Shown here: positions 3,555 to 51,654 of the stretch, piece after piece | Position numbering within the stretch: position 1 is the first letter of the stretch | How the letters are laid out: every line of letters begins with the position of its first letter | Assembly (NCBI GenBank): GCA_947034885.2 | Contig: OX344753.2 | Span: forward strand, 9,610,001-9,674,000 | Source: Thuidium tamariscinum | Taxonomy: Eukaryota; Streptophyta; Bryopsida; Hypnales; Thuidiaceae | DNA: 64,000 nt | Direction of reading: 5' to 3' | Position numbers and translations under genes: made by a program | The notes under the pieces: generated by a model | Told to the model about the DNA's origin: nothing | Database searches by the model: none | What the model saw: only the letters and a program-made list of their open reading frames with translations

Positions 3555-4395
3555 ATTTACTGAATGTAGAATAGGTTATCCATGAGGCCTTTTGTGTTCC
3601 TTTATCTCACTTGTCATCAAAACTTATCCTATAGCCACTTCATTATGAAAGGTAAAATAGGCTATTCTTGCAGCCCTTTATTCCACTTGTCATCAAAACT
3701 TATCTTATAGCCATTTCATTATGAAAGGTAAAATAGGCTATTCTTGAAGCCCTTTGTGTTCTTTTGCCCCACTTGGCACCAAAAACTATCTAGAAGTTCT
3801 TTACTATAGAAGCTAAAATGGGCTATTCTCAATCTCCTTCCCATTCTACCTCACTTATTACCAAAAACTTGTGTAGAGCTACTTCATTATAGAAGGTAGA
3901 GTGATTTATTCTCAAGGCTTTTTCTAGTTCTTTCTCCCACCTACCATCAAAAAGTATTCAATAGCCATTTCATTACAGAATGTAGACTCAATTGTTCCCA
4001 ATCTTTTTCTTGTTCTTCTATCTCATCTATCACCTCCAATTGGCAAGGCCACATCATTATAGAAGGTAAAATAGGCTATTATTGAAAAGTGTCAAGTAAT
4101 CACTTCATTATAGAAGGTAGATTTGGCTATTCTCAATATTCTTCCTCTTCTTCTACCCCACTTGTCACCAACAATTGGCTGATAGCCACTTCACTATGGA
4201 AGGTAGAGTGAATTATTCCCAATCTTCTTTTTGTTCTTCTGTCTCAACCTATCATATCTAATTGGCTTGAAGTGACTTCATTATGGAAGGTAGAGTGGAC
4301 TATTCACGAGCCTTTTGTATTCCTTTGCCCCACCTATTACTTCCAATTGGCCATTGACCACTTCATTATAGAAAGTAGAAGGGCTATCAGGTGAA
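3555..4395. repeat. Degenerate tandem array, unit about 84-86 bp, about 10-11 copies
   Basis: A motif like CATTATAGAAGGTA recurs at 3641, 3717, about 3802, 3885, 3971, 4055, 4106, 4192, 4279 and 4364. The steps are 76, 85, 83, 86, 84, 51, 86, 87 and 85 bases, so one unit is shortened and most are 83-87. A partial copy begins near 3557. Each unit also holds a GGCTATTCTC-like block, a pyrimidine-rich stretch and CCCACTTGTCACCAA-like sequence. Copies are diverged, so the array is old. It has no coding potential. Confidence 0.9.
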
Positions 4396-5000
4396 TGCAT
4401 GAAAGACTAGTACTAATTTGCATCACACTTGGAATGATGAAGTTGTCATTGACTAAAACTTTTAAATTAGTAATTGGATTAACTTGAAATTTTGATTGTA
4501 GATGTCTAACATGACAGTAATTAAATTCCTTGGTTTTCAAAATAATTCAAAAATCATTTTATAATTAGATTTGAACTTAGCAAATTTGTCACACTTTGTA
4601 GTTTAGAGGTTTTTAGTATTGGAGAGTATCCAAAATTAATGATCTAGAGCTGAATTTTTGTGGTTTATTTCCATATTAGGTAGGCATGTTCCTACAAAAG
4701 GGAATTTTTAAAATCACTATTTTCTTTCCTCTAAATGTGTGCTAAGAGGCCTCCCTTGCATGTGCATTTTTGAACATTCAAGATGGTTTTGAGATAATTC
4801 TTTTGGTTAAATCTCTTTATCATAAAGTTCTCCCCAATTCCCAATCTTTAGGTTTTTAAAAAATTCTTTTCCCTATTTTTGCCATTTTAATGAAATTCAC
4901 CATACTTCAACTGAGTCTCTACACATTGGAGTATAGTGACAGTGAGAATGGAATGCATACCGGATTTCATACACCATAGCTTTGCAACATTTATCCCCAA
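4386..5000. repeat. Diverged relative of the 698-bp TIR element found at 6900
   Basis: The start (GGTGAATGCATGAAAGACTA onward) matches the terminal repeat of the element at 6900-7597. Interior segments align in the same order, for example GAGGTTTTTAGTA and the TGATxxxGAGCT block. No matching right terminal repeat was found, so this looks like a decayed or truncated copy. Confidence 0.5.
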
Positions 5001-5028
5001 ATGCCCAAGGCACCAAAATTTGGTGTTT

Positions 5029-5193
5029 GCAAAACTTTGAAGTTAAAGAAAACCTAACCAAATTGTGATTTTTAATAGTTTGTATTTTTGGAGAATTTTT
5101 TTCAAGATTAGGTTTTTGCAAAACTTTGAAGTTAAAGAAAACCTAACCAAGTTGTGGTTTTTAATAGTTTGTATTTTTGGAGAATTTTTTTCA
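5029..5193. repeat. Two direct copies of an 89-bp unit
   Basis: The segment beginning GCAAAACTTTGAAGTTAAAG at 5029 is repeated from 5118 with only a few base changes. The period is 89 bases. The second copy is enclosed by an inverted repeat, annotated separately. Confidence 0.9.
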
Positions 5194-5208
5194 AAAACCT
5201 AATCTTGA
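5102..5208. repeat. Perfect 17-bp inverted repeat flanking the second 89-bp unit
   Basis: TCAAGATTAGGTTTTTG at 5102-5118 has its exact reverse complement at 5192-5208. The arms could pair across a 73-base loop. Confidence 0.85.
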
Positions 5209-5469
5209 AAATTATTGACTATGATTTTTCTATTCAAGATTTTATGCAAGTGTACCCATCGCAATCTTGACTTTCTCTAGTGTTGAGGGCTCTTGGAAAT
5301 GAGCTTCAAATACACTAGGTCTTGAAGAAAAAATCACATTAGAAATTCATTTAAGAAAATTAAAGAGTAGATTTTGAGAATCTACAAATTGATTGGGGTT
5401 ATGCATGTTACTATGGGACCTTTCACCTCATATTTTTCCAGTGACCAACTTTTTAGATTTGACTTGTGA

Positions 5470-5714
5470 AAAGAGGATTGAAAGATTTCACATCACTTTT
5501 GCATTTTTAACACCTTCATGATCGAACATTATAATCTTTCAATTCATAAGTGATTTTTTGGTGTTTTCTTTTTGTAAATGATCTCTAACATGTCTAGTTT
5601 GAATTTGTATAGTTACATTTTTTTTTAATTTGATAAAGCTTATCATAAAATTGACTTTTTGTTCACTTTAGAGCAAATACTTAGAAGCTCAAAAAGGCCT
5701 TGGGCAATTAAGGG
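5470..5714. mobile_element. Possible remnant of the 240-bp TTAA-type MITE (right end preserved)
   Basis: The sequence TTGGGCAATTAAGGG abuts TTAA at 5715-5718; its reverse complement resembles the terminal repeat CCCTTGAGTGCCCA of the elements at 29008 and 30305. An internal block (CATTATAATCTTTCAATTCAT) resembles the related remnants. No left end was found. Confidence 0.3.
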
Positions 5715-5906
5715 TTAAGCATTCAAACTGCGAACTTGAGATCCAACTTTCACAAAGATTCAACAAGTTTCCCTTCTACACATAACATTTAGTAGACCAT
5801 AGAAGGACTGCCTTCCCCTTGGTGAAGTCCCCATCACCTAATTTCATCTGACATTTCTTGGAGTTGCAACTTTAGTTACTGAATGGTGTGGAATACCATT
5901 GGTGTT

Positions 5907-5944
5907 GGATGGAATGGTGTGGGATATTCCACACCATTTCATCC
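5907..5944. repeat. 38-bp imperfect palindrome
   Basis: GGATGGAATGGTGTGG pairs with CCACACCATTTCATCC around a six-base centre (GATATT), one mismatch in 16. A homologous palindrome lies at 10310-10346. A half copy (GAATGGTGTGGAATACCATT) lies just upstream at 5881. Confidence 0.8.
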
Positions 5945-6119
5945 TCTGGGAGTCAGTGTCACAGGCTGCTATAGGATGTAATGTACCATTAAAGTGCTAA
6001 AAACAATCATCAAAATGCAAATTTAAAAAACATTCAAGGTAGATCAAGTTGATGCTCACATTTGGAGCACATCCAATAATGATCAATATATGGAGAAGCA
6101 AGAAATGTTGCACCTTGAG

Positions 6120-6417
6120 CGATGTTTTTTTTTCTAGCGATTTGGTGCAAAATTGCACCAAATTTTTTGGCCTAGTGCCAAGCCTATAGGAAAAAAATAG
6201 TAAAATTTTGGATGAAATTGCTAATAAACTTCAAATTTTTTTTAAATATTGGATGAAATTGTTAAGTAATGGATGAAAATAAAATGATAGATATGTATTA
6301 TGTGCTAATATGATATTTTCTATCCAATATATGGATGAATATTGAGATTTGGAATTCTACAATAAAATGAAATATCACTATTTTGGCACTTCATAAGAAA
6401 TGGAAAAAGAAACACTA
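6120..6417. mobile_element. Diverged hAT-like MITE, third family member (298 bp, 8-bp TSD)
   Basis: The element is flanked by the direct repeat ACCTTGAG at 6112-6119 and 6418-6425, an 8-bp duplication as made by hAT transposases. Its ends and interior resemble the copies at 14963 and 27989: a T-run, then a CTAGCGATTTGGTGC block near the left end and TTGGCACTTCAT near the right end. It is clearly older than the other two. It has no coding capacity. Confidence 0.7.
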
Positions 6418-6899
6418 ACCTTGAGGTTGAAAGTCAGGATGTCAAGAGGTCGCAAAGGGCAAGGAAGGCACCCCTCATCCCACCATCATCCACAAGCGAG
6501 GCAATAAGGGGATCGATTCACTGTGGCCTACTACTAGTGAATGCCCATTGAAAATTTAGGATCTTATTCCCAACTTGGAAGACCTTGGTAGCAAAAATTT
6601 AATCTGTAGACAAATGTAGAAGCCCAAAATAAGTGGTTTACAAAATAGGTCAAAGAGCAAGTAAGTAATGGAACAACTTAAAACAAAACATGAAGTAAAG
6701 CTTTGAAGTCATGGAGGTGAAGTGATCACATAAAACAACTTCCATTGGTAGTGATCATTGTTGAAGGTTAAATTTTGCCATCCCCACAAAATATTGTGTC
6801 ATGAAGAATAGTTTCTTTACAATTCTAGACAAAAGCCTTAGGGAGTTCACTTAGAGTGTCCATATGAGATCACATGCAAATAAAACTTTGGCCCCCCTA

Positions 6900-7597
6900 T
6901 ATGGGTGAATGCAAGAAACACTTGTACTATTTTGTATCACACAACATGTGCTGATTTGTTTTTTGGCCATAAATTTTGTGTTTGAACTTGAAATGACTCA
7001 AAATTTATAAAGAAGGTACTCATGACTATTCTACACTTTGTCTAATTTTTTTTGTAATTTAAAAAAAAAATTAAATATTTAAAAATAGACCGCAATTGAA
7101 TGTCACAAATGCTAATTTGGAGGTTTTTAGTACTATTGAGTACCTTTCTTTTTAATGATTTTGAGCTCAAATTTGGATGACATGGTTTTCTAGTAGACTT
7201 GTAGCTTTATGGCAAGGTATTTCTTAAAAATTTATTTTATGTGGTGCACAAATCTACAAAATGAGCCTCCTTCTACATTTTTTTGGAAATATGTAAAAAA
7301 TGATTATGGTGAATTTTTTTTATGAATAACCATCTTCATAAAGTTTTTGCAAATGGGCATTTTTTTTTTAAATTCCTATTTTTTACTAATTAAAACATTA
7401 AAGTATGTATTTTCTTGAGGTTTGGCACTTTTCAAGTTCTCCTACTTAGATTTTTTAACAAATTTCCTTCAGTGGTTTTTTCATCTTAAAGGTGCTTACA
7501 TTAGTCATATTTTTTTCATTTTTCTAATTTTAAAGTACTCCCAAAAAAATCAGCCAAATGCAACAAATAGTACAAGTGTTTCTTGCATTCACCCATA
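6900..7597. mobile_element. 698-bp TIR element with about 35-bp terminal inverted repeats, likely TA target site
   Basis: The left end TATGGGTGAATGCAAGAAAC and the following CACTTGTACTATTT are mirrored by the right end, nearly without mismatch over about 35 bases. Both sides carry TA (6898-6899 and 7598-7599), consistent with a Tc1/mariner-type target site. The interior is AT-rich and non-coding, so the element is non-autonomous. A diverged relative lies at about 4386-5000. Confidence 0.8.
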
Positions 7598-7600
7598 TAT

Positions 7601-10309
7601 TTTTTGAATTTTAAATAAAATTAAGTAAAAAAATATGAACACATTTTTTTTTTTAATTTTATGTTTTGAATTATTGATATTTTTATTTTTTAATACTTAT
7701 TAGTTACAAATTTTTGAAGTAAAAAGATACATTGTAGAATTGAAAAATAACTTTCACACCCCCATAAAATATAAGGAAAAATTGTCTAAAAAATGAACAA
7801 AAAAATCCTAAAATAACTTTCTATTGAAAGCTCATTTTGAGTTGAATATTGATGCAATGGTCATCTAAATGTGTTCACTATAAATGTTTGAGTTGAAAAA
7901 CATGCCATTTTAGTTCATTTTCAACTTCTTGTAGAAATCATGTCAAATATTATTTTAGTTGGAAATTATGGAAATAGAAACCTATCATTCTTATTAAACA
8001 ATGCTTAAAATTTTAGATTGAAAATATAGTTTATTAGAGACCAATTGTTTGTACATAGTTTGTTGTAGTAGAATTGAGTGCACCCCTCAAGACAAAAGCA
8101 CTGAAAAAATAATTATCACAAAAGTCAATTTTATTGGATGGATTGATGTTCTCTCAAAAAAAAATTTATTCATTTTATTTTAATTAATCCTATAATTAGT
8201 AAGCCCAAAATGCCTCCTTAGAAAACAATTGAAGGTTTAATTATGTTCCTATAATTTCAATTCAAGATTTCAAAATAGATTGGCTTTTAGATAATATAAT
8301 TTTTACATAAATAGATGTTTGGAAACATGTTTGGAAACAAAAGTTATGCCAAATGAAGTTCAAAATAATTGAGTTGTCATGAAATTATAGATTGCCATAT
8401 ACAATACATTGTGTTACCAAAAATGTCAAATAAAACATCAATCAAAATCAACACAAGAGAGTGTAAAAAATACTCTCTCAAGGAATAACATAAACATCTA
8501 TATTCATAAGCGAGGCTATCTTTTACATTATGAAAGGCTAAGAGAATCCAAGAGTGCAAGTGTTAAGAGAAACTTGGCAAGTTTTATTCAAAAAGCTCAC
8601 CACTATAGCCAAGCAAACTCTTACAACAAGAATTGTCTTCTTCAAAACACTCACAAGACTTCACTTGATAAGAATATCAAGTCAAAGAAGCCTCAAGTCT
8701 AGGTACTCCAAACCCTAGTTGATAAGAAAAAAGAGTCAACTTCTAAATGAGGTTCTTATTTTTTAAGTGACTAAGGACTGCCTAAAACGACAATATGGGC
8801 TAAAGAATCCATCCTAATTCAATAGAGGATATGCTATGTCATACTTCAGTAAGAATTCAACATTAGATGCCATGTCACTTGCTAGAGCTTTGACAACCAA
8901 AAAATATATATTTTCTTAGAGATTGTAGTTTTGTTTATATATAAAGAGATTGGTTTATTACATTTGTATAAGTATTGTAAGCTATAGAGCATCTTGCTTT
9001 GTTAGGAGTCATTAACATTTTGTTGGAAGATAAGCATATAGAATTTATTTTTTAATTTATTTTTTATAGTTTTAAAATGGAAAAATTTGCACAAGGTTTG
9101 GTTTGCTTGTTAGAACAATTGAGATTATTTCCCTTCAAGTCCATCTTAAACTATTACTAATTTTTGTTTCCAATCTAGTAGTTCCTACTTAATAACTTTT
9201 TGAAGAATAAGTATCTAAATTCTTGTTTTCAAATTTAAAGAAAAAATTCTCAACTAAGAATTTTTATTATCAAAATTTGTAGCAAGATAAATTTAAAATT
9301 AATGGGATTCAAATTTTTATATTTCAATGTAGCAAGTCAAGAAAAATTCATTTTCTTTACTTTAAATGCAAATATCTTACAATTTTTCTTTTTGAAAAAT
9401 TTTCTATACATTTCCATACATGTCTTATAGAAGATCCTTTGATTAGAAATGTAGAAATCAAATGCTTAGAAATTTTGCTCTTTCATTTAAAAGGGAATTT
9501 TTTAATGTTTTTTTGATGAAAAATTACCTAGGGGCTTTTAATTAGGTTAGGAGGGTGCACTACATGCAAACAAGCCCCTATTATTTGGGGTCTATGTAGG
9601 TGATTTTTTGGGATTTATGGGGGGCTTACTTTACCTAAATTTCTAAAGGGTGCTTATTTCATGTACCTTATCTTTTAGTTGAAATTTTTTTGGATGCTAA
9701 TTTTTTATACTCTATGTTCATTATAAATACAACATATTAGAATGTCATAGAAACAATTGACATACAAATAATTACAATATACTTTATAGATAACACTAAA
9801 TGGTATATTTACAAACTATATTTACAATAACACAAAATCACACCAATTGCAAAAACTAGTATAAAAGCTTGTACCAATGAAGCAATGAAGCAAAAACTAG
9901 TACCATGAGAAAACAATGCACACATTCAATGCAAGTTCAAGTCTAGAAGGCTCAAGGCAATGCACAAAATTGTGGTGTATGAGTTAACAAACACATAATA
10001 CACACCATTAACAAGAAGTTTCAAAAAATGAAGAGTATGACATGTCCAAGGTTCCCATTTTCAAATGCAATAGGACATTGAAGAACTCCAAACTAAGGCC
10101 AATATGATGCTTGTGACTTGTACATTAAAACAACCACTCATTCACTGAACTGAAATGGCCAAAGTATTATTCATTCATCCACAATTTGAATTTGTGCAAC
10201 AAGCAGATGGGATTTCACTCAACCCTAAACTATAAATTCTTACACCTCTATGAATTTGTACAGCGCATGCATAACATTTAATAGCAAAAAGCAGTACTAT
10301 CATTCTCCA
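7601..10309. repeat. AT-rich non-coding DNA containing a diverged dispersed repeat
   Basis: No gene was recognised. Segments at about 8281-8390 and 9060-9540 resemble segments at about 24990-25500 in the same orientation, for example the GGAAACAAAAGTTAT and TTTGCTTGxTAxAACAAT blocks. This suggests an old repeat family that is also present, inverted, at about 53450-54100. Confidence 0.4.
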
Positions 10310-32577: not shown

Positions 32578-33132
32578 TTATTCTATTGGAAGTGGTTGGT
32601 TGTTTTCAATTCTTCTTTTATGTAGAATGATTGATCCAGCGTATTGTATGGCTATGGTATTGATTGTTTTGAAAGTGTGTGTTAGAGCAGTTTCTGTTAA
32701 TTTAAGTTTGGCTTCAAGGATTTTCATTGAAGGTATGTGTGTTGTTCCTCTAGCTCCTGCTGTAATGACAATAAGTGGATCTATTTTCCATCCTTGGGCC
32801 ACGATACTATTTATTAATGGTTGGTATTTTTGAATTTTATTGTCTATGGTTGTTTGTGCAAATCTGTCATTAGAGTATGTAAATTCAATGAATTGTATTG
32901 TGAGATTATTATCTGGGATATTTGGTGGGTTGCTCTGGTAGGAGAGTCCTTTAATCCAGAGGATATCCGGTTTAAATCTAGCGTTACAATGACATCTTTG
33001 TCTTTGGCAAGAACAAGGTAGCAACCATGGGGGGACTGTGTTTTCTTGTGGATTGTTATTGAATGTTCCTGCATTCATGAGAGTATAATATCTACTATTT
33101 TTGGTAGATAGGATTAGTTTTCTTAATTCCTA
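32578..33132 (-). pseudogene. LINE ORF2 C-terminus: restriction-like endonuclease (REL) domain
   Basis: This segment continues ORF2 in frame after a TAG at 33130-33132. It has a CxC...CxC cluster followed by a PD-(D/E)xK nuclease: KPD (Pro-Asp at 32965-32970), IEFT with Glu at 32884-32886, and KIQKYQPL with a Lys at 32827-32829. The PD, E-x-T and KxxKY spacing is that of R2-type and Dualen endonucleases, which nick the target for primed reverse transcription. The following block (PLIVITAGARG) is also typical of the C-terminus of such proteins. Whether this tail was ever made separately from its own ATG at 33078 is unknown; readthrough or decay is more likely. Confidence 0.72.
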
Positions 33133-36100
33133 TACTGCTTTGTTATGTCTTTTGACACGAAGGGCATGGATATGATGTTGTTTGCATTTTAGGAGTACAT
33201 GGAGCCATGTGTCTACGTCATGAGAGTTACAAATGGAGCATGTGATAGATGGGAATCTCTCAATCCCAAAAAATAATTGTTTTCTAGCATTTCCCATATA
33301 TTGGCCGGTGCGGAATTTTAATATGCTTGTTTTTTGTGAGTCGGTTATTTCAGGGTTTGACCAAAAATCATTAGAGAGGTTCTTATGTATATCGGGGTTA
33401 AGGGTCCATTTACTAATGTTAGGAAATCGTTGTGCCATTATTTCAAGGTTTCTATCATGATCATGTTTGATGATGTATGTTCCTAAACATCTAACCGGAC
33501 CTTTGTCAGGTCGATGGGCTTGACTTGGCCATTCATCTTTTTGGTAATAGAATGGAGTAGTATGTGCAAATTCATAATTTTTTGAGGCAAATTTATATTC
33601 TTTTGTTGTGCCATGTTTTGCAAGTTTGTCTGCTTGTTCATTGCCTAAGATATTAGTGTGGCCTTTAATTTTGGAAATTGTTGTAGGTTGTGTACGGCTT
33701 TGAAGCATCTCTACTATAGATTCTAATATGATTTTGTCTGCATGATTGCGATGTAGAGTAGGATGTTTTAGTTGTGTATTAAGGACATATAGACAGTTTA
33801 GGCAATCAGTGAATATATAGGCAGGTTCATGTGGATATTGGGTAGTGATTATGCGTAAGGTTTTGTGTATGGCCATGAGCTCAACTCTAAAAATGGTTTG
33901 TAAACCAGGAAGCCGTTTAGAGATTTGAATTTCTTCTTTGAAAGAGTTGTATATGCCGTATCCTGCTTTTTCGCGTATCCAGTGTCCATCTGCATGTTGT
34001 TGTGGTGGTATAAATGAACCATCTGTGTAGTAGCTATATTGCGGTGGAAACTTTAATTGAGGAATAGATGTATACGTTGGTAACGGGGAGGTATATAAAT
34101 TTATTGAATTATAGTTGGTTTTATAAGTGAGTTTTTTCCAATTTGAATTCTTTTTTACTATTACATTACTAGGTGTTGGTGCAGCAATTTGTATATGGTA
34201 CTGTGGTATTTGCATATTTTGGAGGATCTGTGTGAGGGAGTCTAGTTGGTTGGGTGAGCCGATATTGTGATTTTGGTGGTGTATGCATAGAATATGTATT
34301 GCAAGAGGCTCAGTGTGTGGTTGTTTATTTAGTTCAATTGGAATTGTTGGTTTTTCATATGTAATAGTGTCCGCAATAAAATGTGCAATAACGTTTGTAT
34401 CTTCAAATGGTCCAATATATGGGGAGAAGTTATGGTACCAGTTTATATCTGGTATGACTAATATAGTTATGGTGTTTAGATCATGTTTGGCTGCTAGTCT
34501 TGCCCAATGTAGTGCTTGTTGGGCTGTTTCTTCGTTTTGTGGATGTGCAAAACCTTTGCCTTTCCATTTGTATTGAAATGCTTTGCCAAGTGATCCAAAT
34601 ACTATATCTCTTTCAAAGAAAGAGTAAAATTGTGTGATTAGTGTGGAGCAAGTGATTGGTGATGAGAAATATGAATGAGAAATGTCAAATGTTTTTGTTA
34701 AGGAATCTAAGATGTTTTGTGGAAGGGAGTGTTGCGACGTTCTTAGCGTGTTTTTATTAGATTTTTTATGTTTGTAACGTTGATATAGCCATGTGATCTC
34801 GGTTTCAAATGATTGTATAGGTGGTGTTAAGCCATGCGTATTATGGATAGCAGTTTGATATTGTTTCCATAGCCATTGTAATCTAGTGGTTGGAATAGTT
34901 ATGAGGTAGTTACCGGTGTCAAGGTATATATGTGTTAGTTCATTTTGTGTTATTATGGTAGGTGTGCTTGTTATTATGTCTTTTTCTGGATTACATTCAT
35001 TAGTGAAGATTTGCATAAGTGGAATTGTTGTTGGGGGTGGGATAAATCTAGTATCTCTAGATTGTTCATGGTTAAAATTGACCATGATGAGGTTTTTGTA
35101 GTATTTGTGTTGTTGTTTTGTATAGTATTGTGTTAGTAGGTTGATGTTGTGTGCAATTACTGTTGGTTGATTAAATGGGAAAAGATATCTTTGTGGTAGC
35201 CATTTACTATAAATGGTATTATTTTCAAGTGTCCATTGGCACAGATATATATTAAATTTTTTGGGGATTTTGTATTTGTCTTTGATTTCTTTGATTTTAT
35301 GATCTATTATACTGTATATGGGGAAGTTAAGTGGGTTGTTTTGAATATGTAGAGGTGGATTTTGTTGTTGTGGTATTTGTATTGGTGGTGGGTGTGGAGG
35401 GCTATATGAAATCCTAGGAATTAAATCTCGGTTATCTGAGATGTATTGTGCTCTTAGAGTTCTTGGTAGTGAATGTCTTGGACAGGGTTGTAAGCATTCA
35501 GGTGTACATTGTGGATAACAGAAAAGTTGTTCAGCTATATTTAAAGCAACTTTTTCAATTTTTGTTGGAGTTTTATAGTATATTTTGAAGTCTTGAGGTG
35601 TCATTAAATGTGTACCATTTGGAAGTGTAATGTGTTTAATTTTATATATGTTATGTAAAAGGAGTTTATGTAGCATTTTGAAGGAAAGTTTGGAATTTAT
35701 ATGTGGTAGAATACGAGTAGTTTGTAACATCCATTCTTTTTCAAGTTCTGTTGGGTGTAGTTGAAAGTTTTCTACTACACTCATGAGGTGGATGTTTGCT
35801 TCATTTTTAAGAAGAAAGAGGGTCCTTGTTGTAGGTGATCTGACACAATCTTGTTGTTTGATTCTTGGAATGTTTTCTGCCCCTCCATATTTGGCCAATA
35901 TATGGTGGATGAGTCCTCTATATATTATTCCTAGTCTACCTGGATCGTTTAGAGCATTTCTAAGTTGTTCACTAATGCAACGTAGGTATGCATTTTTAAG
36001 AGAGAAGGCTTCAAGTCCAAAAAATTCATGTGGAAGTTGTGCTATTACATTGGCAGTGCATTTTGGTAATCCACATATAGTTTTCTGAATTCCAATGATC

Positions 36101-37530
36101 TTTTTATCAAGTTTTTTAATTGTTGGTAGAGAATATGGCACTACATAGAAACTATAGGCTATACCTGCTCTAATTACAGTGTCAACCATATTGATTTTTT
36201 GTTTTATTGTAGCTGGGCAGTTAGTAAGTTGTGCACATTGATCTGTTACCTTTTTAGTGGTGATATGAGTTTGTAGTTTCCATTTTAGAGAAGGTATTAG
36301 TTGTATTCCTAAATATGGGTAGGGTTCGTGTTGGTGTAAAACTGGTATTTGTTGATTTCTGTAGCTAATGTTCATGGCAAGTATTTGAGTTTTAAAGATG
36401 TCTGGTTTTGTTTTTGATTTATTAGGGCATCCAGTGATTGCACATTTTGGTACTCCTAAATCCATTCCTGCCCATTCACAATATTTATCTAGTTTGTTTA
36501 GTTGAGATTGGAGTGATTGTGGATTATTTGATGTAGCTGCTAGGTCATCTGCATATGCTGAAGAACTTATAGTTATCTGGGATGTGCCAAAGTTGTAGCC
36601 ATTATTACCTATTTGGAGCCATCTAAGTAGCGGTTCAAGAAAGATAAGGAAAAGGTATAGACTGAGTGTGTCACCTTGAATGGTTCCTCTTTATATTTGT
36701 ATTGGTTTAGTTTTACCAAAGTGTTCTCCTGTGAAAATAGTAGTGGAGTTTGAGTAAATATTTCCGATTAATGCTACTGCATCTTTTGGGTATCCAAGGT
36801 CTAGCATTATAGCCAAGAGCCTTGTGTGGTCTATGGAACCGAAGGCGTTTTTGAAGTCTATATATAATATGTAGATGTCTTGATTAGTAAAGCGTGCATC
36901 TTCTAAAGCTGCTATAAGAAGTTGTAGTTGTCGTGATGTGCTACGTTCTGGTCTAAATCCTTCTTGGCTATCATGTAGGATTTGGTGTTTTTCACCGTAG
37001 TTTGAAAGGGTTAAAGTGAGAGTACTAGTGAAAAATTTGTAGATTGTGTTTGCAAGTGCAATTGGTCTATGATTTGATAATTGAGAAGGATCTCCTTTTT
37101 TATAAAGTAATATAGTCAGACTAGTTTTCCAAGATGATGGGATTTGTTTGTGTTTATAACAATGTTTGAAAAATAGAAAAAGGAGGTTTTGAAAACATTG
37201 AGGCATATTTTTAAGGATTGTATTTGGAATTGAGTCTGGACCAGGGGTTTTATTATTGGATAAGTGTTTTAAACACATGTCATACGTTTCTTTAGTGAAG
37301 TAAGTATGTAAAGGAGTATCCGGGGTTCCACGTTTGTCTATGACAAAACCATTTAAGTCATGCCAGGGGTATTGTCTCACTGCGCATGTACAATGTGGTG
37401 AGTGTTCTGGTAGATAATAACATGTTGGAACTGTAGGGATATTATTAATTGATTATTGAATGTGTATCTCATTGGCAATGTCTTCAGGGTTGGTTAATAA
37501 GTTGTTTTGTCTATCCAAAATGCAATCTAG
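33133..37530 (-). pseudogene. LINE ORF2 middle: reverse transcriptase, RNase H and CCHC finger
   Basis: The frame runs from just after the frameshift near 37533-37569 down to the TAG at 33130, broken by in-frame TAA at 37453-37455 and TAA at 36691-36693. RT motifs in order: NNKTPGPDSIP, a YKKGD...NHRPIAL block, EGFRPERST, YIDFKNAFGSIDH (first catalytic Asp), RGTIQGDTLS directly after the 36691 stop, and YADD at 36544-36555. RNase H residues follow: Asp in TDGSF (34021-34023), Glu in RVELMAI (33880-33882), Asp in FTDCLN (33805-33807) and Asp in NEQADKLA (33628-33630). A CSIC...H....C zinc finger sits at about 33181-33240. All catalytic residues are retained despite the stops. Confidence 0.85.
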
Positions 37531-40004
37531 TGGGGGGGTATTTTGGTTTTTGAATTTTTTTTTTTTTTGGGACTTTTTTCATATAGTTGTCTATATTTTG
37601 TGATTGCCTTTTTGATGCATTTTTGAGTATATTGTGTAGTTATTTTACGAGCTTGTATGTTTGCGTTTTTGGCTAGGTTTGCTATGGTGTTAATCCATTC
37701 TTGTTGGTTTGTACCATGTATTTCAGGTGGTGGGATGCGGGCGTTGTTGTGTTTACGTATTTCTTCTATTATTGGATGGTTTGTCCAATTTGTTGTGTGT
37801 TTGGATATGTAGATTACCTTCCTGATCAGGTGGTAAGTAGAGAGGTGAGCTTTCCATTTTTTCTGTATTTTTCTTGGTAAAAAGCCACCTTGTTGGGCTG
37901 TACGGTTTGTTAGATGGGGTAATGGTGGTGCACTACAGGTTTCAAGTATTTTATTGGATATACTTTGTATGAGGTGGTCTAAGGTATTACATGCTTCGTG
38001 CCATTGGTGGTTTGTTATATTTTCATTTGTAAGAATGGTGGTTAGTTCATTTATTTGAATTACGTGTTCCTCAAAAAAGTTTGTTTTAAAACTTTCTATA
38101 TTTTCTTGGGGAATAGGGTTTAATATTCGTAGTGGTTTATTTATTATTGGTGTTGTAGGTCTTGCTAGTAATGTATTTGGTGGTATATGTAATGTTACTA
38201 GTGAATGGTCTGAATTGAGGTTGTGGTTATGATTTGTGGTTGCTGTGTATAAAGTAGAATTAGGTGTATTTATATAATAACCATCTATTAGACTTGTTTG
38301 AGTATAGTTTTGGCCACCTTGTCTAGAAAAAGGGCTGTTAGTAGATATATATGTGAGTTGCTGGCTATCTGTAAATCTACGCCATTCTATGTCTTCTGTT
38401 TGCGGTGAAGTTATGTTAAATTCATTTTGTCTACCAATGAAGGCAATGTCTCTGTTGAAGTCTCCACATAGAATATAAGTGTGTTGTGAGTGTAGGGAGA
38501 TTTGTTGACTTATACATTGTTGGATTTTGGGTATCAATTGTAGATCCTCTGTGTGTGATGGCATATACATGTGGAGTAATAGCCATGGTTGTAAAGGGTG
38601 ATTGTTGATTTTTATAATTTGTAAATATGGTGAGAATTCAGCTGGGGTTGGAATTTTGGTGATGTTTCCTGGGTATGCATATTTTTTATTTATTAGTGTA
38701 AGGAGTCCACCACGTCTTGGTGTATATGGTCGTCTCTGTTGCATACATCTAGTTAATGCATGCGTATTATTAAATATTAATTTATATTGTGGAAATAAAT
38801 TTTCGATGTATTTTGTGGATTTTGTTGCAGTTATTTTGGTTTCTTGTATTGTTATTATTGCAGGGGTAGTTGGTGTGAGTGATGTTAGTTGTTGGAGGCT
38901 TGGTAAGGCTGTGTTGATCGATGCGGCGTTCCATGTGGTCATGTATGTACTGGAGTTAGTAGTTTGTGTATTTGTAGTATCTATGTTTGGTAAATTGGTT
39001 AGAGGAGTGGAGTGGGAGTATTCTATTAAGGTGTCTTTGCATTTTAATGCTTCTAGGAGTAGTTTCTCAGGAAGGTATGGAAATTTGTTAAGCATTATTT
39101 GTAAGGTTGGTGTTGCAGGTGTTTGTTTAATGAAATTATATATTTCTTTGTGAATGGAGTTGGAAGGTTCAATGATATCTTGGTGTAGATTTTTAAATTG
39201 AGTGTATGGGTGTGGTGTTGTGATATGTCTTTCTGGTGGATTTTGTAGGAGGGCCATTTTTTCTAGTAATAGTGTGGTCCAGTCTGGGATTGATATTTGT
39301 CTTAATAGATGGTTACATGTCTCTAATTGTGGACTGATTGTGGTAATAAGTGCAAATAAAAGTCTTGGTGGTGGGTGATGTTGGTTTTGATGAATGTATT
39401 GTGATATGTAAGGGTAATTTATGGTAGTGTCGTTGTGGTGAGGGTGTGTAATGTTTATTATGGGTGAGAATAGTTTTGCTAAATGTTGGTATTCGGGTTG
39501 TAGTTTTATTGTGCATATTATAAAATACATTTTATATCTATTTTTATGTGAAGGTGGGTGGGTGGTAAGTATATCGGGCATGGGTCCCGGGTTAGTTTCT
39601 ATATCACCACATAAAAGCATTGTAATGTGCAAAGGGAATTTTTGGTGTTTTGAAATAAGATAGGTGGTTTTCAGTTTTACTTGAATATGTTGGCAAATTT
39701 TACTAAATATTTGAATATGGTTGCCAACCAATATAATGTGTTTATGTGTATATAAGTGTGATGTATAAGTGTTTAAATTTTGTGTAAAAGTTCTAATGTC
39801 AAAAACGAGGTGGAACTTTGATGAGGACATGGAGAGAAGCAAAAGCAAAATATATATATAATATTGCCACCAAGTGGCAGTGTACAATAGTGTGGTGCAA
39901 ATAATGGATGATAAACTACTAAGGTATATGACTATGGCACTCTGTTTTTGGGTGATGGCGTTGTAAAACTGAACTAGTTTGGCGATGAGGAGGGTTCTGG
40001 GGCT
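37527..40004 (-). pseudogene. LINE ORF2 N-terminus: 2A-like motif and APE endonuclease
   Basis: The frame opens after a TAA at 40005-40007, overlaps the end of ORF1 by 31 bases and has its first ATG only at 39828-39830. A hydrophobic stretch leads to CGDIETNPGP; its DIETNPGP core (39582-39605) fits the 2A ribosome-skipping consensus. The apurinic/apyrimidinic-type endonuclease follows: TWNAASIN, IQETK (near 38840), GDFNRD (near 38460) and SDHSLV (near 38200). It ends in a lysine-rich stretch over an A14 run (37555-37568), where the frame is lost, and a TAG at 37527. APE domains cut target DNA for priming; here a second, restriction-like nuclease sits at the far end of the same reading frame. 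Confidence 0.83.
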
Positions 40005-41653
40005 TTAATGGCTGGGCAATTCAAGCCTTTAATCATTTGCATGCTCTGAGCTAAGAGGGATTCTAGGTTTGTCAGGTTACCTCTGAGCTCCTGATCTACC
40101 TTGTCTGCATAACTTTGTGCCTCTATTGTCAGTTCTTCTTTCATTTGACTCATGTCGGACTTAAATTCCATACACAACTTCAAATTTTCTTTGGAAACCG
40201 CCTCTCCTATCAATGCTGATAGTTGCTCATTCTGAAATGATTGTTTTGGGGCAGAGGATGATGCTGTGTTCTGCATTGCTTCAACTGTACTAGCTAGAGC
40301 AGTGTTGATGTCCAAGAAGCCCCATTTCTGAAGGGTTTCATCATTGGGTTTGGCAGTCCCATCTAGAGAGTTAGGATGGGGTTGGAACTCCACCCATTTG
40401 TGCTGAAGGCGTGTTGATTTCTTCACATGTTGCTTATAGACTGCGGCGTTGAGACATTCGATGTTGGCTACACCACTATGAGCATCTCCTTTATACCGAG
40501 GGAAGAAGATGGATTTGACATTTTTGACTCCAAAGTGGTCGTGAAATCCCTGGGTTACTTCAGCAATGGATTTGGTGAGGTTGATGCCTTTGACAATGAG
40601 CACTAGGCAGTTTCTCTTGTTCACCTCTTCACGGGTCAGTTGATTCAAGTCTCTATTAACTGATTGTAGAAGTTCTCCCAATACTGCAATTCGTTGCTGC
40701 TTGATTTTTGCCAGTTGCTCCGGTGATGTTGTTGTCAACCAACCATAAGGTTCAGCGGTAGGTTTTTGAACCTGTGTTAGCTCGAATTCAAAGCCCCTAT
40801 GGAAACTCTCTTCAAGTGTCTGTTTGAAGAGGTGGTGGGGTTCCATGTTCCGAATGGTCTCACTATTAATCTTGATAGAGAGTAGAGTACTAGAGGTAAT
40901 AGGATCAAATGATTTGGAGACTTTGGCTATTGTGAGTATGTCATCATCTAGAGGAATGGCAAACACTCTAGTACCACGGAGTAGGGCTTTACCATCAATT
41001 TCTAGGTTTTGAAGGTGAATTCTAGCCATGCCTGACCAGACTTTGGAGTTTTTGGCTCCATGACATAGGATTGCTATGGGGTCGGCAATGCTATCACCTA
41101 ACTGTATGTTCATCTCTTGAAAACGCCCCAAGATCTTTACCATGGCTTGTTTTTGGGTCAGTGGGGACAAAGGCTTTTCAAAGTGTAAGAGAATGTGGTA
41201 ATCGAGAGCGAGTTGGGTGTGCATGTTTACCTCGACATCAAAGGGAATTTGAGTCAGGTTGAAGTGCTGGCCTGCAATATTGTCAGGTCTTGAAGTAGGC
41301 CACAGCTTTCGTTGCACGCAAGGAAATGACATACGAGCTTTTGTGAGGTCATCTGCTTCTTGTGGATTGTATCCTTGAGTAATGAGTTCTGCTACTGATG
41401 CTTTATTGGTGAATGGCGGCATACTGGCTTTGTAGGCAAGGGTTTCTATAGTAAGAAACCCATACCAAAATTCGTAAGTTGCTGGCTCACTGAGTAGGGC
41501 CATAGTTGTGACGGTGCCTTTTGATTTCTTTTATATGGATGTTTCAGCTTCTGGTGTTGTGCGCTTTTGTGAACCAACCGCATCTTCCATCTCAATATCA
41601 TTTGAGTAAGCCATATGTCTCCGAACTTTGTTGCTTTGTAGAGGGTCTGACAT
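39974..41653 (-). pseudogene. LINE ORF1 (gag-like RNA-binding protein)
   Basis: The first likely ATG is at 41651-41653 (MSDPLQ), followed after 40 codons by an in-frame TAA at 41531-41533. The downstream ATG at 41501-41503 gives an unbroken 509-aa frame, so this copy may still encode a slightly shortened protein. Around codons 295-390 of the 509 there is an RRM-like pattern (VLIVKGIN ... FHDHFGVKNVKSIFF ... VEFQPHP). The C-terminal 80 residues are rich in Glu, Gln, Lys and Leu and look like a coiled coil. No CCHC knuckle is seen. The role expected from family knowledge is RNA packaging and chaperone activity in the retrotransposition particle. Confidence 0.68.
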
Positions 41654-46009: not shown

Positions 46010-46029
46010 TTAACCCCTAAGCGCTCAAA

Positions 46030-46046
46030 CGACCATTTTCTGGTCG
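46030..46046. repeat. Subterminal hairpin at the piggyBac left end
   Basis: CGACCA and TGGTCG form a perfect 6-bp stem around TTTTC. Similar short hairpins follow the left termini of the TTAA elements at 52469 and 57248, so this may be a transposase-binding feature. Confidence 0.6.
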
Positions 46047-47122
46047 CTGCCCTACTTGGTCAGGCTGCCCAGGGCAGGGAAATGAAAAATTTTGCACCCT
46101 ATTTTTTTTGGTGGGTGGTTAGGTAGAATTACTATGAAGTTCCACAAATATGCAATGGAAAAAAGGTTTAAATGTTTAGGGATTTTTTTTTAAAGTTGGA
46201 AGGTCAAGTTTGGGCTCAGAAGAATGTAAAAGTTGTAACCTTGGACCACTGATCATGTGCCATGTGTCATTTTTGAACAACTGCCCTTGCCTTGGAAGAA
46301 GGCCTCTAGGCTTGCACCCATCATCTTAGCAATGGAACTGGTCTGAGAGCACAGGGTTGTCAGATCCAAAATCTGGAAAACAAGATTCATAGTACAGAGG
46401 CGTTGCTGCAAGTGGTGGTTGGCACCCTTGTTCAGCTGAAAGGGGCCTGTTCAACTGCTAGGACATTCTGAAGAAATACAAAACACAAACATAGAAGAAA
46501 GCACCCCCAAAAAATTCCAAGTGTGCAATCATAACTGCAAGCACTATATTTTCACACATGAAAGTCTTCCTGAGTGTTTATGATTTGAAAAAAATTCCTA
46601 TTCCTGACATTCTACTCCAACAACCAAAAATGAGATGCCCTCACTCATTGATGTGGGGCTATGGGTATTCACTCCTGTGACTTCACAACATCCATGTCAT
46701 AAGATACCAAGTCACGTGGAGATAAATGGGAGATATTCGCATTCACCTTCTCATGTCCTGATATTTTTTTCTAAAAACATTTCTGAAATTCAAGAACACC
46801 AAAATCCACTTCACATTCCTATTCCACATGCTTGCATTCACATGTCCTCACTTACATTGGGAACATTGCAAATCACTGCAGATTCCACTACCTCATGGCT
46901 GAATGAAGATGCTCTCATTGATGGACAAGAACTACAAAGATCTCTCGAGATTCTTCTTCAATGACCCCTCTTCCATTTCTCCTCAACCATTGACTGCAGA
47001 AGCCACACTACAGATGAGAGAAGTCAAACTCAAATGAAGGCACCTTGCTTTCCATAGATTCCATATGGTCATAAAGGATTCAAAGAATTCAAGCAACTAT
47101 CACATCACAGCACTACCTTCAA

Positions 47123-48223
47123 ATGGAAACGGCTCTTACCATGGATTCTTCCTCTTCTTTTACTAGTCCTTCCATTTCAGCTTCTCTTGCTGCTAGTGCT
47201 CAAGTGATTAGACAATGGGCAGTTCAAGATCATGGAGCCTCTGAGGCTCAAGTTCACCTTCTTGTTGCATGTATGAACAAGGAATTCCTAGTTGGTAGAC
47301 CCAGATTAGCAAAAAGTAGAGTTCTGCCAACACAACCGTCTAATAGGAACTACCACCAACTGTACTATCGGAATGCAGCTGCGATTTTGGGTTGGGGACC
47401 ACCATGCCGTTTAGAAGGCAAAGGGCAAGGGTTCAACAGCGAGGTCTACTTCCACCTCCGCATTGTGATTTTCCCAGATGCAACTAGCCCTGCAGACGGC
47501 AATGGAGATATGAATGGTGGGAGAACAACACAACATCGGCAAGGACAGATAGAGGAAGACAACGGCAACACATTCAACGGCATTCAAGAGAGTCAAAGGG
47601 AGCAGTTCTTCTGCAGCAGCAATCACGGCAGAACAACAGGTTGTGAGCTGAACTTCTTTTAGTGGGTGAATTCCGCAATATTGTTACTAAGTGTGAGTCC
47701 TAACCATAAGCATGTGCTGCAGATCACCAAGCCAACAGCAGCAACAGCAGTCTTCTAGTCGGCAAACTGAAGCGCAGAGCCAGCGACGACGACATCCTGC
47801 CGAACCTCCTAGGTGAGTTTGTATGCCGAACCCCTCATCCTTGTCTTTTCCTGCAGCTTAGGGTTCATTTACTGACGATTCAATTTCTTGCAGGAACGGG
47901 AGGGAATCCGAAGGACAATGGAGAAGACAACTCAAAACAGCAAGGACTTGCCAGAGGAATCAACATCCGACCCATCGGTACTGCAGGTTCGACCCTGAAC
48001 CCTATCTCTCTTCTACATTTTTTTGTTTCAGCTGGTATAAGAGTTAGCTTTCACCTGATGCTTTATTTTTCCAGCCCTAGAATTGGGCTCAGATAGCAAA
48101 CGCGCGGGCAGACCCCTCGATAGCAAGCAGGAAGACTTCGCAGTTGAGTTCGGGGTTGCACATCCGAAGCGTACGACGAAAATTGCACGAACTGGAGAAC
48201 TTGCCGCCGCAGGAACTGAATAG
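47123..48223 (+). CDS. Spliced first ORF of the piggyBac element, unknown function (predicted 282 aa)
   Basis: I do not recognise this protein. An ATG at 47123 opens a 172-codon first exon. GT-AG introns of 83, 81 and 88 bases then join exons 47123-47639, 47723-47812, 47894-47986 and 48075-48223. All joins keep phase 1, total 849 nt, ending at TAG. Exon 1 encodes a Ser/Ala-rich start and a more globular stretch (QVIRQWAVQDHGASEAQ ... AAAILGWGPPCRLEGKG ... YFHLRIVIFPD). Later exons encode polar sequence with basic clusters (GKLKRRASDDD, KRAGRPLDSK; the latter resembles an AT-hook core). The last exon overlaps the transposase frame in another reading frame. The first donor (GTTGTGAG) is not ideal. 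The product could be an accessory protein, a regulatory upstream ORF or an alternative N-terminus. Confidence 0.5.
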
Positions 48224-48251
48224 GGATCCCTCTCAGCGTTGCAACAATAGA

Positions 48252-50708
48252 ATGCTACTACAGCAATTTCCTACCAAAAATGGAGACGCCATTGACGATG
48301 AAGAAGGCTGCCTGGAAAACGAATGCCAAGCTCCACCGTTGATGTTCCCAATGTCGGTGAGGGTGCCCTATTGCTACCTGGAAGAAGAAAACAAATGCCA
48401 CGACCAACAGTTAGATGACGAGCAATGTGGTTTTAGCGTAGGATTGGCTACGTACTCCTATGTCAATGAAGTATCAAAGAAAGAGATGTACTTCATAGTT
48501 TTGAAAAATAAAACTACGATTGCTTTGGCGAAATCAGTTGTGCATGAAAGTCTATTGTGTAAAGACCATGCAACCTCCGATTCAAGTACTCACACTTCAG
48601 ACTGCGAGGGATGCCAAGACTCGTCCTGTGATAGTGAGGAGGATGGCACCCAAGAGTCCTCCACCTCCGAATCAGATAGTAGCGAAACCTATGAGAGCAT
48701 CGATTACCCTGCAAACGACGAAGAGAACTACGTCGCTGACAATGGAGACGACCCCTACACGGATCGGGAGACTCAACCTCCGCTTGAAGTAGGTTCACAG
48801 ACTGGCTTCACCGTCGTCGCCTCTGCAACACAGCAACGGACGCGACCACTAACAAGGGCCGCATTGAGGGAGGAGCAGCAGCGTGTTGAAGAATCAATGC
48901 ACAGCGCTGCGACGACAAGCAAGCGGAAGGTGCCTCCGCTTCACGGCGAAGAGGGCCTCGCGGCCGAAGGAAGCGGCGGAGACGACCGCCCGACGACGTC
49001 AAGTGGACGAGGTCGCGGCAGGGGGCGCGGTAGGGGCCGCGGCCATGGCACAGGCACTGTGAACTGCTCATTGACTGAGCAGGCGCAAAATACAATCAAG
49101 GAAGAGTATGGTCCAAGGACTTGGGGCCACAGGTACATGAACTATAACCCCTCTGTAAAACCCTTTTCTGGACCATCTCCTGGATTGATTGAAGAGTGGG
49201 ATCGGGTCCCTTCTGTGCTTCAGTTATTTGGGCTTTTTTGGTCAATTCAGACCTTGAGGCGTATATGTTCCGAAACAAATAGATATGCCACACAGGAATT
49301 GCGGAGGGTGAAGCGGGGGGTAGTGAATGCTACATACCCTAGTGATTACAAGACATATACACGCGGGGGGATTGGGTGGAAACCGATGGATGTGGGTGAA
49401 TTGAAGGCTTTTTTTGCTATCTCATTATACATGGGATTGAAGAAACTTCCCAACATCCGCATGTATTGGCAAAAATCGGAACCCTTTCTTTATTGTCACA
49501 TTATTTCCCAACTTCTATCCCGCAATCGTTATTTGCTTCTATCTAAGTGTCTTCACATCACCAACCCAAGTACTATATGTGTAGACCGTGCGTCACAAAC
49601 CTATGACAAAGTAAACAAAGTGAGGTGGTTGCTAAATGAAATGAGGGATCGTTGCAAGGCCTTATGGAACAATGGGGAGAAAATCACCATAGATGAGATG
49701 ATGGTCCATTATAAGGGTGCGTATTGCCCCGTGCGGCAATACATGCCCAATAAACCCGAGAAATGGGGACTAAAGATTTGGTGTTTGGCCGATTCCGTAG
49801 CCCGTTTTGTAAGCAACTTCAACGTTTATTGTGGGGCATCCATTGAAAGTGTAGGGGCCCCTAAGTCCAAGAAAGGTGAGCCCAAGATGGGGCAAAGGGT
49901 AGTAGAGTCATTGGTTGGTGGATTGCAAGGGCGAGGACATGTAGTAGTTATGGATAATTTCTTCATGAGTGTTGAATTATTCCGTGATTTAGAGAGGGGG
50001 GGAACCTATGCCACGGGCACTCTTCGAAGCAACCGTATAGGACTCCCACAATTTATGAAGGACCAAAAAGCGTTCAAGAAAGCAACGCAAGGGAGTTTGG
50101 AATGGGCAATGCATGAATCCCGCAAAATGTGTGCGGTCATGTGGATGGATAAAAAACCGGTACTTTTATTGTCCACTAGTTCTTTGCCCCTATCTTTCCC
50201 TTGTGAAATAGTGGAAGTTCCTCGTCGCAAAGGGGGAAAAATTGATAAAATCAAGACATCACCGGTTCACTTGGAATATACTACGTTCATGCGAGGGGTT
50301 GATGTGGCAGATCAACTACGTGGTTCTTATTCTTGCCAAGTGCGTTCTCACAAATGGTGGCACCGTCTTTTCTACTTCCTTATTGACACTACCGTTGTGA
50401 ACATGTGGATTATGCACAAGGAAATTATGAGGAAAAAAGGCCGTGAGAAAGAGTCGTTGACACATTTCAATTTTATTTTGGCCTTGTGCAAGGCTTTGAC
50501 TAGAAGTTGGACTGGCCAAAAAGCTACCATATCTCTATTATTGGAAGACATGCCTCGAATTCATTACCCTCAGAGAAGTCATTTGCGCCGACTATGTGTT
50601 GTTTGTAAGCAGAGGACGAATTCTTTTTGTGCATTGTGTTCATTCCAATGGATGTGTTATAGTCGCGGATGCTATATGAAAATGCACCATCCTAGTGGTA
50701 CATTCTAG
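48252..50708 (+). CDS. piggyBac transposase (DDE_Tnp_1_7 family), apparently intact
   Basis: The enzyme cuts the element at TTAA and rejoins it. The first ATG in the frame is at 48252 (818 aa); the frame is open back to 48081, so a spliced N-terminus is possible. Order: an acidic Ser/Glu/Asp-rich region (about residues 110-175), an RG-repeat stretch near 255-265, then the catalytic domain. The catalytic triad is visible as Asp481 in TIDEMMVHYKG, Asp568 in VVMDNFF and Asp684 in GVDVADQL; spacings of 87 and 116 residues are close to those of the cabbage-looper enzyme. The C-terminal 42 residues form a Cys-rich domain (CVVC ... CALC ... C ... C ... HH) as needed for terminal-repeat binding. No stop or frameshift interrupts it. 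The product is longer than the insect protein because of the N-terminal region. Confidence 0.93.
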   Translation: MLLQQFPTKNGDAIDDEEGCLENECQAPPLMFPMSVRVPYCYLEEENKCHDQQLDDEQCGFSVGLATYSYVNEVSKKEMYFIVLKNKTTIALAKSVVHESLLCKDHATSDSSTHTSDCEGCQDSSCDSEEDGTQESSTSESDSSETYESIDYPANDEENYVADNGDDPYTDRETQPPLEVGSQTGFTVVASATQQRTRPLTRAALREEQQRVEESMHSAATTSKRKVPPLHGEEGLAAEGSGGDDRPTTSSGRGRGRGRGRGRGHGTGTVNCSLTEQAQNTIKEEYGPRTWGHRYMNYNPSVKPFSGPSPGLIEEWDRVPSVLQLFGLFWSIQTLRRICSETNRYATQELRRVKRGVVNATYPSDYKTYTRGGIGWKPMDVGELKAFFAISLYMGLKKLPNIRMYWQKSEPFLYCHIISQLLSRNRYLLLSKCLHITNPSTICVDRASQTYDKVNKVRWLLNEMRDRCKALWNNGEKITIDEMMVHYKGAYCPVRQYMPNKPEKWGLKIWCLADSVARFVSNFNVYCGASIESVGAPKSKKGEPKMGQRVVESLVGGLQGRGHVVVMDNFFMSVELFRDLERGGTYATGTLRSNRIGLPQFMKDQKAFKKATQGSLEWAMHESRKMCAVMWMDKKPVLLLSTSSLPLSFPCEIVEVPRRKGGKIDKIKTSPVHLEYTTFMRGVDVADQLRGSYSCQVRSHKWWHRLFYFLIDTTVVNMWIMHKEIMRKKGREKESLTHFNFILALCKALTRSWTGQKATISLLLEDMPRIHYPQRSHLRRLCVVCKQRTNSFCALCSFQWMCYSRGCYMKMHHPSGTF

Positions 50709-50965
50709 GAGGAGGGAGGTAATGTTTTTCATCAAATCATGTGTTTTTGGGAATTGTTTGACATTGATTCTAAATGTGCCTTTTTTGGGGTGCTTCAGAC
50801 ATTGAAACTTTACAGCATTTGTAGCTAGAAATGCCAATCCATCCTTCTTAGATGAAGAATTATTATTTCAAATGTACTTCTATGCCTTCTCTTTCATCTT
50901 TGGAGTATTCTTTGACTGAATTTGAAAATACTGCAGTCAGTGGCCCCTGTTGGCCTCAGGCAGCG

Positions 50966-51055
50966 CGACATGTGGCGGGAGGTGGGCGCCAGCTCGCGGG
51001 AGGTGGGCGGCAGACGGAGGTGGCCGGGAGGTGGGCAGGAGGTAGGCGGCGGATG
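50966..51055. repeat. G-rich minisatellite inside the piggyBac 3' region
   Basis: Imperfect tandem copies of a CGGGAGGTGGGCGGCAG-like unit, about 16-24 bases each. The G-runs could form a G-quadruplex. It lies after the transposase stop and before the right end. Confidence 0.65.
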
Positions 51056-51654
51056 AAGGGAGCCCCGTTTGAATTGGCAACGGCCCCCTGACAGCGCAGG
51101 AGGGCAAGGAGGCCATTGCAGTCGGGGCCGCTTGCTTGCTGGCATGCTGTGCACGGGCCCAATATAGGGGAGAGGGTGGTTTTTTTTCTGAGAATTGTAA
51201 CTGAACGTTGAGTTCCAACTATTTCAAGCCCCATTTTGAATACAAATTTTTTTTATCTCTTTTCCAATTTTGTTTGTAGATGTTGTAAACTTTATGGATG
51301 AACTATCTATCAAAAAATGCTAGGTGTTAAAAAAAATGGGAAAAAGTTATAGGCCTTCAAATGCAGGCTGCCCGGAAATACAGTGCAGTGAAATGGGTTG
51401 AAATTCAACTTCAGAACCATTTTCCCGAAAATCCGTGCGGTAAAATGACCTGAAATTTGCAGGGAATGATCAAAACTACTATATATACAAGATCCAACGG
51501 TTAAAATGTTGAAACAACGTTTTGAAATTTCTGTGGATCCCTTACTAGAAAACTGCTATTTCAGGACAGTTTTGAAGCACACACACCCCTTGGACGTTTA
51601 GGGGTTAATCAATTTTATTTTTTTGCATCAAAAAATCAAGCAGTATATTATCCA

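Follow-up and report, generated by a model that had tools for sequence, protein, structure and literature searches.

The 64-kb window examined here, by which we mean the whole stretch of DNA that was analysed, most likely contains a full-length DNA transposon of the piggyBac superfamily that resides in a nuclear chromosome of a moss and belongs to a large population with very recent movement. We put the probability of this reading at roughly 0.8. It also includes, with less assurance, an accessory protein encoded by an open reading frame (ORF1) upstream of the transposase, and it regards the copy in the window as an older insertion. A full-length element of this type had been proposed in a preliminary description of this DNA, and its ends, TTAA sites and transposase are indeed all present, although the coding content is larger than was described. 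The outer features of the element are:

46010..51608, + strand: whole piggyBac element including both TTAA copies, 5,599 bp
46010..46013, no strand assigned: left TTAA target site
46014..46028, + strand: left terminal inverted repeat, CCCCTAAGCGCTCAA (19-nt repeat including TTAA, 84%)
51590..51604, - strand: right terminal inverted repeat (same 19-nt repeat pair, 84%)
51605..51608, no strand assigned: right TTAA target site

There is only one occurrence of TTAACCCCTAA in the 64-kb window, at 46010, and only one of TTAGGGGTTAA, ending at 51608, and these mark the left and right borders of the element. The two end motifs, of 11 bases each, flank the transposase on either side. The ends match as TTAACCCCTAA[G/A]CG, the terminal inverted repeats begin with CCC and read CCCCTAA[G/A]CG at both ends, and extension to 19 nucleotides gives sequences that are 84% complementary. 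The matching CCCCTAA termini and flanking TTAA sites described earlier therefore hold up. When the full element was used as a DNA query against the host genome, at least 76 matches were returned, including the element itself. Among the 75 other matches listed, 17 end exactly at query base 5599 (the right border) and four start exactly at query base 1 (the left border). Because other copies stop at the same positions, the borders of the window element are real. Insertion at TTAA with duplication of this site is found for the window copy and for 11 of 11 copies of a young subfamily with distinct flanks. In the genome search, 300 bp of left flank from the window copy matched only itself, and no empty site was found. 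As a separate observation, the right end of another locus (L026 on contig C1, around position 3904) reads TTTAGGGGTTAACCCCTAA, apparently two adjoining ends of the piggyBac type with a single TTAA in common.

The features of the transposase are:

48252..50708, + strand: ORF2, transposase, 818 amino acids from the ATG at 48252 (uninterrupted ORF, PF13843)
49221..50408, + strand: DDE_Tnp_1_7 catalytic domain with D481, D568 and D684 (PF13843, residues 324-719)

The match to PF13843 (DDE_Tnp_1_7) has an E-value of 1.6e-78 over residues 324-719, and the protein aligns with the solved structures of piggyBac (6x67, 7.3e-25) and piggyBat (9c0f, 1.2e-20). In the printed alignment, read by eye, D481, D568 and D684 are located opposite Asp residues of 6x67. 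These three residues, which we take to have the catalytic roles in piggyBac transposases, are invariant together with D687 in nine aligned transposase rows, all picked from the loci in hand for being free of stops. The same is true of C782, C785, C796, C802, C807 and H812 near the C terminus. Thus, the predicted protein carries both the DDD triad and the Cys-rich C-terminal domain of piggyBac transposases. Values of dN/dS for the catalytic part range from 0.07 to 0.11 in four comparisons. The uninterrupted transposase with three Asp residues and a Cys-rich domain that had been noted before is correct for the ORF that was named.

Relatives of this element are numerous. A protein search of the genome gave 57 matches on contigs C1-C10, of which 22 lack stops and 35 contain them, so that decay is common among the copies. 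A Pfam search yielded 659 first-look candidates; 116 of them were scored, and every one of these exceeded the cut-off. A 16-mer from the end of the youngest subfamily, which is not identical to the ends of the window element, has 229 exact hits genome-wide, and its reversed control has none. Several groups of copies are closely alike: L010, L012, L013 and L014 at about 99%, L004/L005 at 98% and L011/L015 at 98%. The pair L002/L006 is 97.5% alike, and looks like one duplicated segment because the likeness extends through the right flank.

The youngest subfamily has 11 full-length copies. Each is reported as 100% identical over 5,096 bp, with eight sharing the highest score and three scoring slightly below them. 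Three of the 11 copies were fetched, and they exhibit no mismatch at any base over the 5,096 bp. Every one of the 11 is bounded by TTAA on both sides, and no two share a left or a right flank; eight were judged from short flanking sequences and three from fetched loci. Their next relatives among the matches listed are at most 71% identical, and over a part only. With roughly 7e-9 substitutions per site annually, a value for Arabidopsis that may not apply to mosses, the insertions are tens of thousands of years old or less. As judged from these sequences, movement of this sister subfamily is very recent. The preliminary description had proposed recent activity and a search of the host assembly for near-identical copies. 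Such copies exist for this other subfamily and support recent activity of the population, but none was found for the window copy among the matches listed, where the closest relative is 91-95% identical.

The window corresponds to bases 9,610,001-9,674,000 of contig C5 (30.6 Mb), in an assembly of 363 Mb and 19 contigs. Contig C19 (115 kb) carries rbcL between frames that were read by eye as atpB and accD, and the order atpB-rbcL-accD is that of the land-plant plastid.

Some other sequences in this assembly deserve mention in their own right. Nuclear contig C2 has a single uninterrupted frame of 360 codons (L043, C2:15617929) that by eye is an rpoA of the plastid type. The search reported no rpoA on the possibly incomplete contig C19. 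Since an rpoA relocated to the nucleus is characteristic of mosses, the host is most likely a moss. Sequences resembling rbcL are found in nuclear contigs (L032/L033, C1:38347545-38348475, and L034, C2:45922033-45922155), with a stop in the two C1 pieces, and are perhaps transferred plastid DNA. Within the window, a gene for SNAPC3, a subunit of the snRNA-activating complex, is located at 623-2116 (+ strand) as a single frame of 497 amino acids. A LINE-like retrotransposon at 32578-41503 (- strand) has reverse transcriptase and RNase H domains as well as weak endonuclease matches. One of its ORFs has a 2A-like motif (GDIETNPGP) close to its start, and the RNase H ORF matches PF12237 (PCIF1_WW, 2.8e-13). 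The presence of a PCIF1-like domain seems unusual for a LINE.

The earlier description of the piggyBac element named the transposase but missed a conserved ORF located upstream. The features of this region are as follows:

47123..47639, + strand: ORF1 exon 1, conserved, predicted helical domain of ~110 amino acids
47640..47722, + strand: predicted intron 1 (GT..AG at this alignment position in 8 of 10 copies, or in 8 of 12 if L010 and L012 are included)
47723..47812, + strand: predicted ORF1 exon 2
47813..47893, + strand: predicted intron 2 (GT..AG at this alignment position in 6 of 10 copies, or in 6 of 12 if L010 and L012 are included)
47894..47986, + strand: predicted ORF1 exon 3, which holds the ATG at 47918
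47987..48074, + strand: predicted intron 3 (GT..AG at this alignment position in 10 of 10 copies, or in 10 of 12 if L010 and L012 are included)
48075..48223, + strand: ORF1 part of the last exon, with stop codon TAG at 48221-48223; protein of 282 amino acids
48078..48080, + strand: TAG in the ORF2 frame, upstream of the ATG at 48252 (TGG in 8 of 10 aligned rows; TAG in the window copy and L003)

ORF1 probably corresponds to a spliced protein of 282 amino acids. We infer this gene model from the conservation of GT-AG sites and reading frame, and its borders are not kept in every copy. Copies L010 and L012 were set aside from the 10-row intron counts because their exon 2 aligned differently, and the 10 aligned copies are not independent cases because there are three close pairs among them. 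The modelled frame is open to its own stop in 7 of the 10 rows. Relatives of ORF1 (from 47123) are present in 18 other loci in hand, with identities of 44-62% in 15 copies of the wider group to which the window element belongs and about 33% over 95 amino acids in three copies of the young subfamily. Over the first 120 codons, seven comparisons with the window copy give dN/dS values of 0.09-0.27, where 0.09 and 0.13 rest on saturated dS (above 2). Copies L006, L009 and L014 have a stop in this stretch and were excluded from the alignment. Judged by these ratios, ORF1 is under purifying selection. The predicted structure is all-helical, with a pTM of 0.68, and the ten-residue blocks across residues 21-120 have pLDDT values of 81-93 except for two at 55 and 60. 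Structure searches revealed no convincing fold relative for ORF1, and it passed no Pfam cut-off.

A genome search with the ORF1 core from the window gave 149 matches at E-values up to 0.01, among the 150 of 296 candidates that were scored. At least 67 of the 116 scored transposase domains have an ORF1 match within 6 kb upstream on the same strand (at distances of 1.2-3.9 kb), and among the matches listed none has an ORF1 match elsewhere within 6 kb. Random placement, with partly approximate contig sizes, yielded a mean of 0.16 and a maximum of 2 in 500 trials, compared with the observed 67. Conversely, 93 of the 149 ORF1 matches have a listed transposase downstream within 6 kb. Ten of the other 56 sites, a hand-picked rather than random sample, were also retrieved, and each proved to have a same-strand transposase downstream. 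ORF1 is not universal, because there is a subfamily (L029/L030; 5.14 and 5.17 kb, 97.5% alike and recently copied) whose elements have TTAA ends and no recognisable ORF1. A copy of the subfamily lacking ORF1 is located at 2606-7778 of locus L046, with the minus strand read as element orientation, and lies ~1.7 kb from a frame (307-864) that is cytochrome P450-like by eye.

Three other explanations for parts of this picture need to be weighed. Since piggyBac is best known from animals, the element might be animal, fungal or protist DNA that contaminates the plant assembly. This is extremely improbable given that the element is embedded in a chromosome-scale contig and has many dispersed relatives, including the 57 protein matches spread over ten contigs and the 229 end 16-mers. 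In addition, its 300-bp left flank matches only itself, and the assembly also includes a plastid contig on which rbcL is found and atpB and accD are recognised by eye. The earlier placement of a piggyBac element in plant-like DNA is thus supported, and the DNA is that of a land plant. A more serious question is whether the window copy is a non-autonomous relic, with its ends and most of the transposase preserved but inactive because a nonsense codon interrupts the N-terminal region of ORF2. The ATG at 47918 in exon 3 is present in 12 of 12 aligned copies (alignment read by eye), and the splice model joins it in frame to ORF2. This conserved ATG is followed in frame by the TAG at 48078-48080, a codon that is TGG in 8 of 10 rows, and the activity of the window copy is therefore uncertain. 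Furthermore, the closest copy among the matches listed (C2:1498078-1508156, with its own TTAA sites and flanks that differ from those of the window copy) is 91, 93 and 95% identical in three pieces. Against this sibling the window copy has a dN/dS of 0.47 at a dS of 0.068, which indicates weaker constraint than in the deeper comparisons. However, all 818 codons from the ATG at 48252 are open, the catalytic and Cys-rich residues are all retained, the ORF1 of the window copy is open to its stop and the element ends are intact. Moreover, L003 shares the TAG, and L002 and L005 have other stops between the conserved ATG and 48252, so that 4 of 10 rows carry a stop and the stretch may be dispensable or may simply not code for transposase. 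Either the region upstream of 48252 may be broken in these four rows, or the transposase may start further down, in which case the TAG would be of no consequence. We regard a relic as quite possible, although slightly the less probable state. The window copy is an older insertion and may have kept or lost its autonomy. The earlier description of the transposase as uninterrupted is right for the ORF at 48252-50708, but calling this copy intact becomes doubtful if translation starts at the conserved ATG of exon 3.

The remaining alternative concerns ORF1, which might instead form the N-terminal portion of a single long transposase, with splicing or a +1 ribosomal frameshift linking it to ORF2. 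A longer frame overlaps the end of ORF1 in 12 of 16 elements examined; nine of these overlaps are +1 and the other three +2. The eight that reach at least 229 nucleotides are without exception +1 of ORF1, as is the transposase frame in the splice model for the window, and in L037 and L042 the overlapping frame continues through the transposase. The ORF2 frame also extends ahead of its first ATG for 264 codons in L030 and 161 in L029, and L039 has conserved ORF2 sequence ahead of any ATG in its open frame. However, ORF1 has its own stop in the seven rows whose modelled frame is open, the ATG at 48252 in the window copy sits 28 nucleotides past the ORF1 stop, and the ATG at 47918 in exon 3 is a possible start for ORF2 itself. 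In addition, L029 and L030 have no recognisable ORF1, and therefore their long frames without an ATG need another explanation. A joined protein is a serious possibility that falls somewhat short of even odds. The overlap fits either two proteins from overlapping frames or a fusion via frameshifting or splicing. It is only suggestive of dual coding, because 5-32% of synonymous shuffles, depending on the element, also leave it open, and because openness was the criterion for choosing the tested stretches. A bolder proposal is that moss piggyBacs are two-component systems, wherein ORF1 represents a new helical family tied to transposases and is a required co-factor made from the +1-overlapping frame by dual coding or programmed frameshifting, with one ORF1-bearing subfamily jumping today. 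We hold this tentatively and consider it less likely than not.

For our preferred reading, a full-length piggyBac element probably accompanied by an accessory protein, a mechanism can be outlined by analogy with established piggyBac biochemistry. The transposase would bind the element ends with help from its Cys-rich tail, the DDD triad would cut the DNA via hairpin intermediates, and the element would then be joined into TTAA. Perhaps, with less assurance, ORF1 is a second transposon-encoded protein produced from an overlapping frame of the same transcript. It could assist transposition through end binding, nuclear import or regulation.

The available parts of four papers list PiggyBac among the superfamilies found in all groups studied (PMC4438587), give 1,230 PiggyBac-annotated pieces for the fern Ceratopteris (PMC6890710), state that piggyBac has been found in plants (PMC10140906) and name PiggyBac among angiosperm MITE superfamilies (PMC10004981). 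The earlier remark that there are few land-plant records is fair in this light, but the number is not zero. Our literature search turned up no account of a moss piggyBac that is intact or has moved recently, or of a second conserved ORF in a piggyBac element. Among the main genome-engineering vectors is piggyBac, which has been studied mostly in animals, and a plant lineage with a very young subfamily bearing two open ORFs would provide a naturally plant-adapted version. A conserved second gene would also allow one to ask whether the piggyBac superfamily can depend on an accessory protein. Furthermore, 11 identical or nearly identical copies at 11 sites make recent movement directly testable by comparing moss individuals.

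The moss elements share with piggyBac from Trichoplusia ni (6x67/6x68) and piggyBat from Myotis (9c0f) the PF13843 domain, a DDD triad at matching positions, the TTAA target, ends that begin with CCC and a Cys-rich C terminus. They differ in having a much longer N-terminal region and probable introns, and in many copies the transposase is preceded by another conserved ORF, frequently with an overlap in a different frame. The compact layout that is usual but not defining for piggyBac (2.2-3.5 kb, one ORF of ~580 amino acids) contrasts with the 5,599 bp and two ORFs of the window element. Likewise, the moss elements of 5.1-5.6 kb exceed bee piggyBacs, which measure 2.23-3.52 kb with one ORF of ~580 amino acids in the available part of that study (PMC10140906). 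Another piggyBac element with extra genes is Teratorn, which, according to the part of the source available, is a piggyBac fused to a herpesvirus, 180 kb in length with viral genes (PMC10175614). Unlike Teratorn, neither ORF1 nor ORF2 gave a viral match in the searches made. Two-protein DNA transposons are known in PIF/Harbinger (transposase and a Myb-like protein), En/Spm (TNPA/TNPD) and MuDR (MURA/MURB), and some accessory proteins of these kinds are made by alternative splicing of one transcription unit. These systems belong to other transposase superfamilies, and the moss ORF1, as noted, passed no Pfam cut-off. Nevertheless, the architecture is similar in that a transposase is likewise paired with an element-encoded accessory protein, a role that is putative for ORF1.
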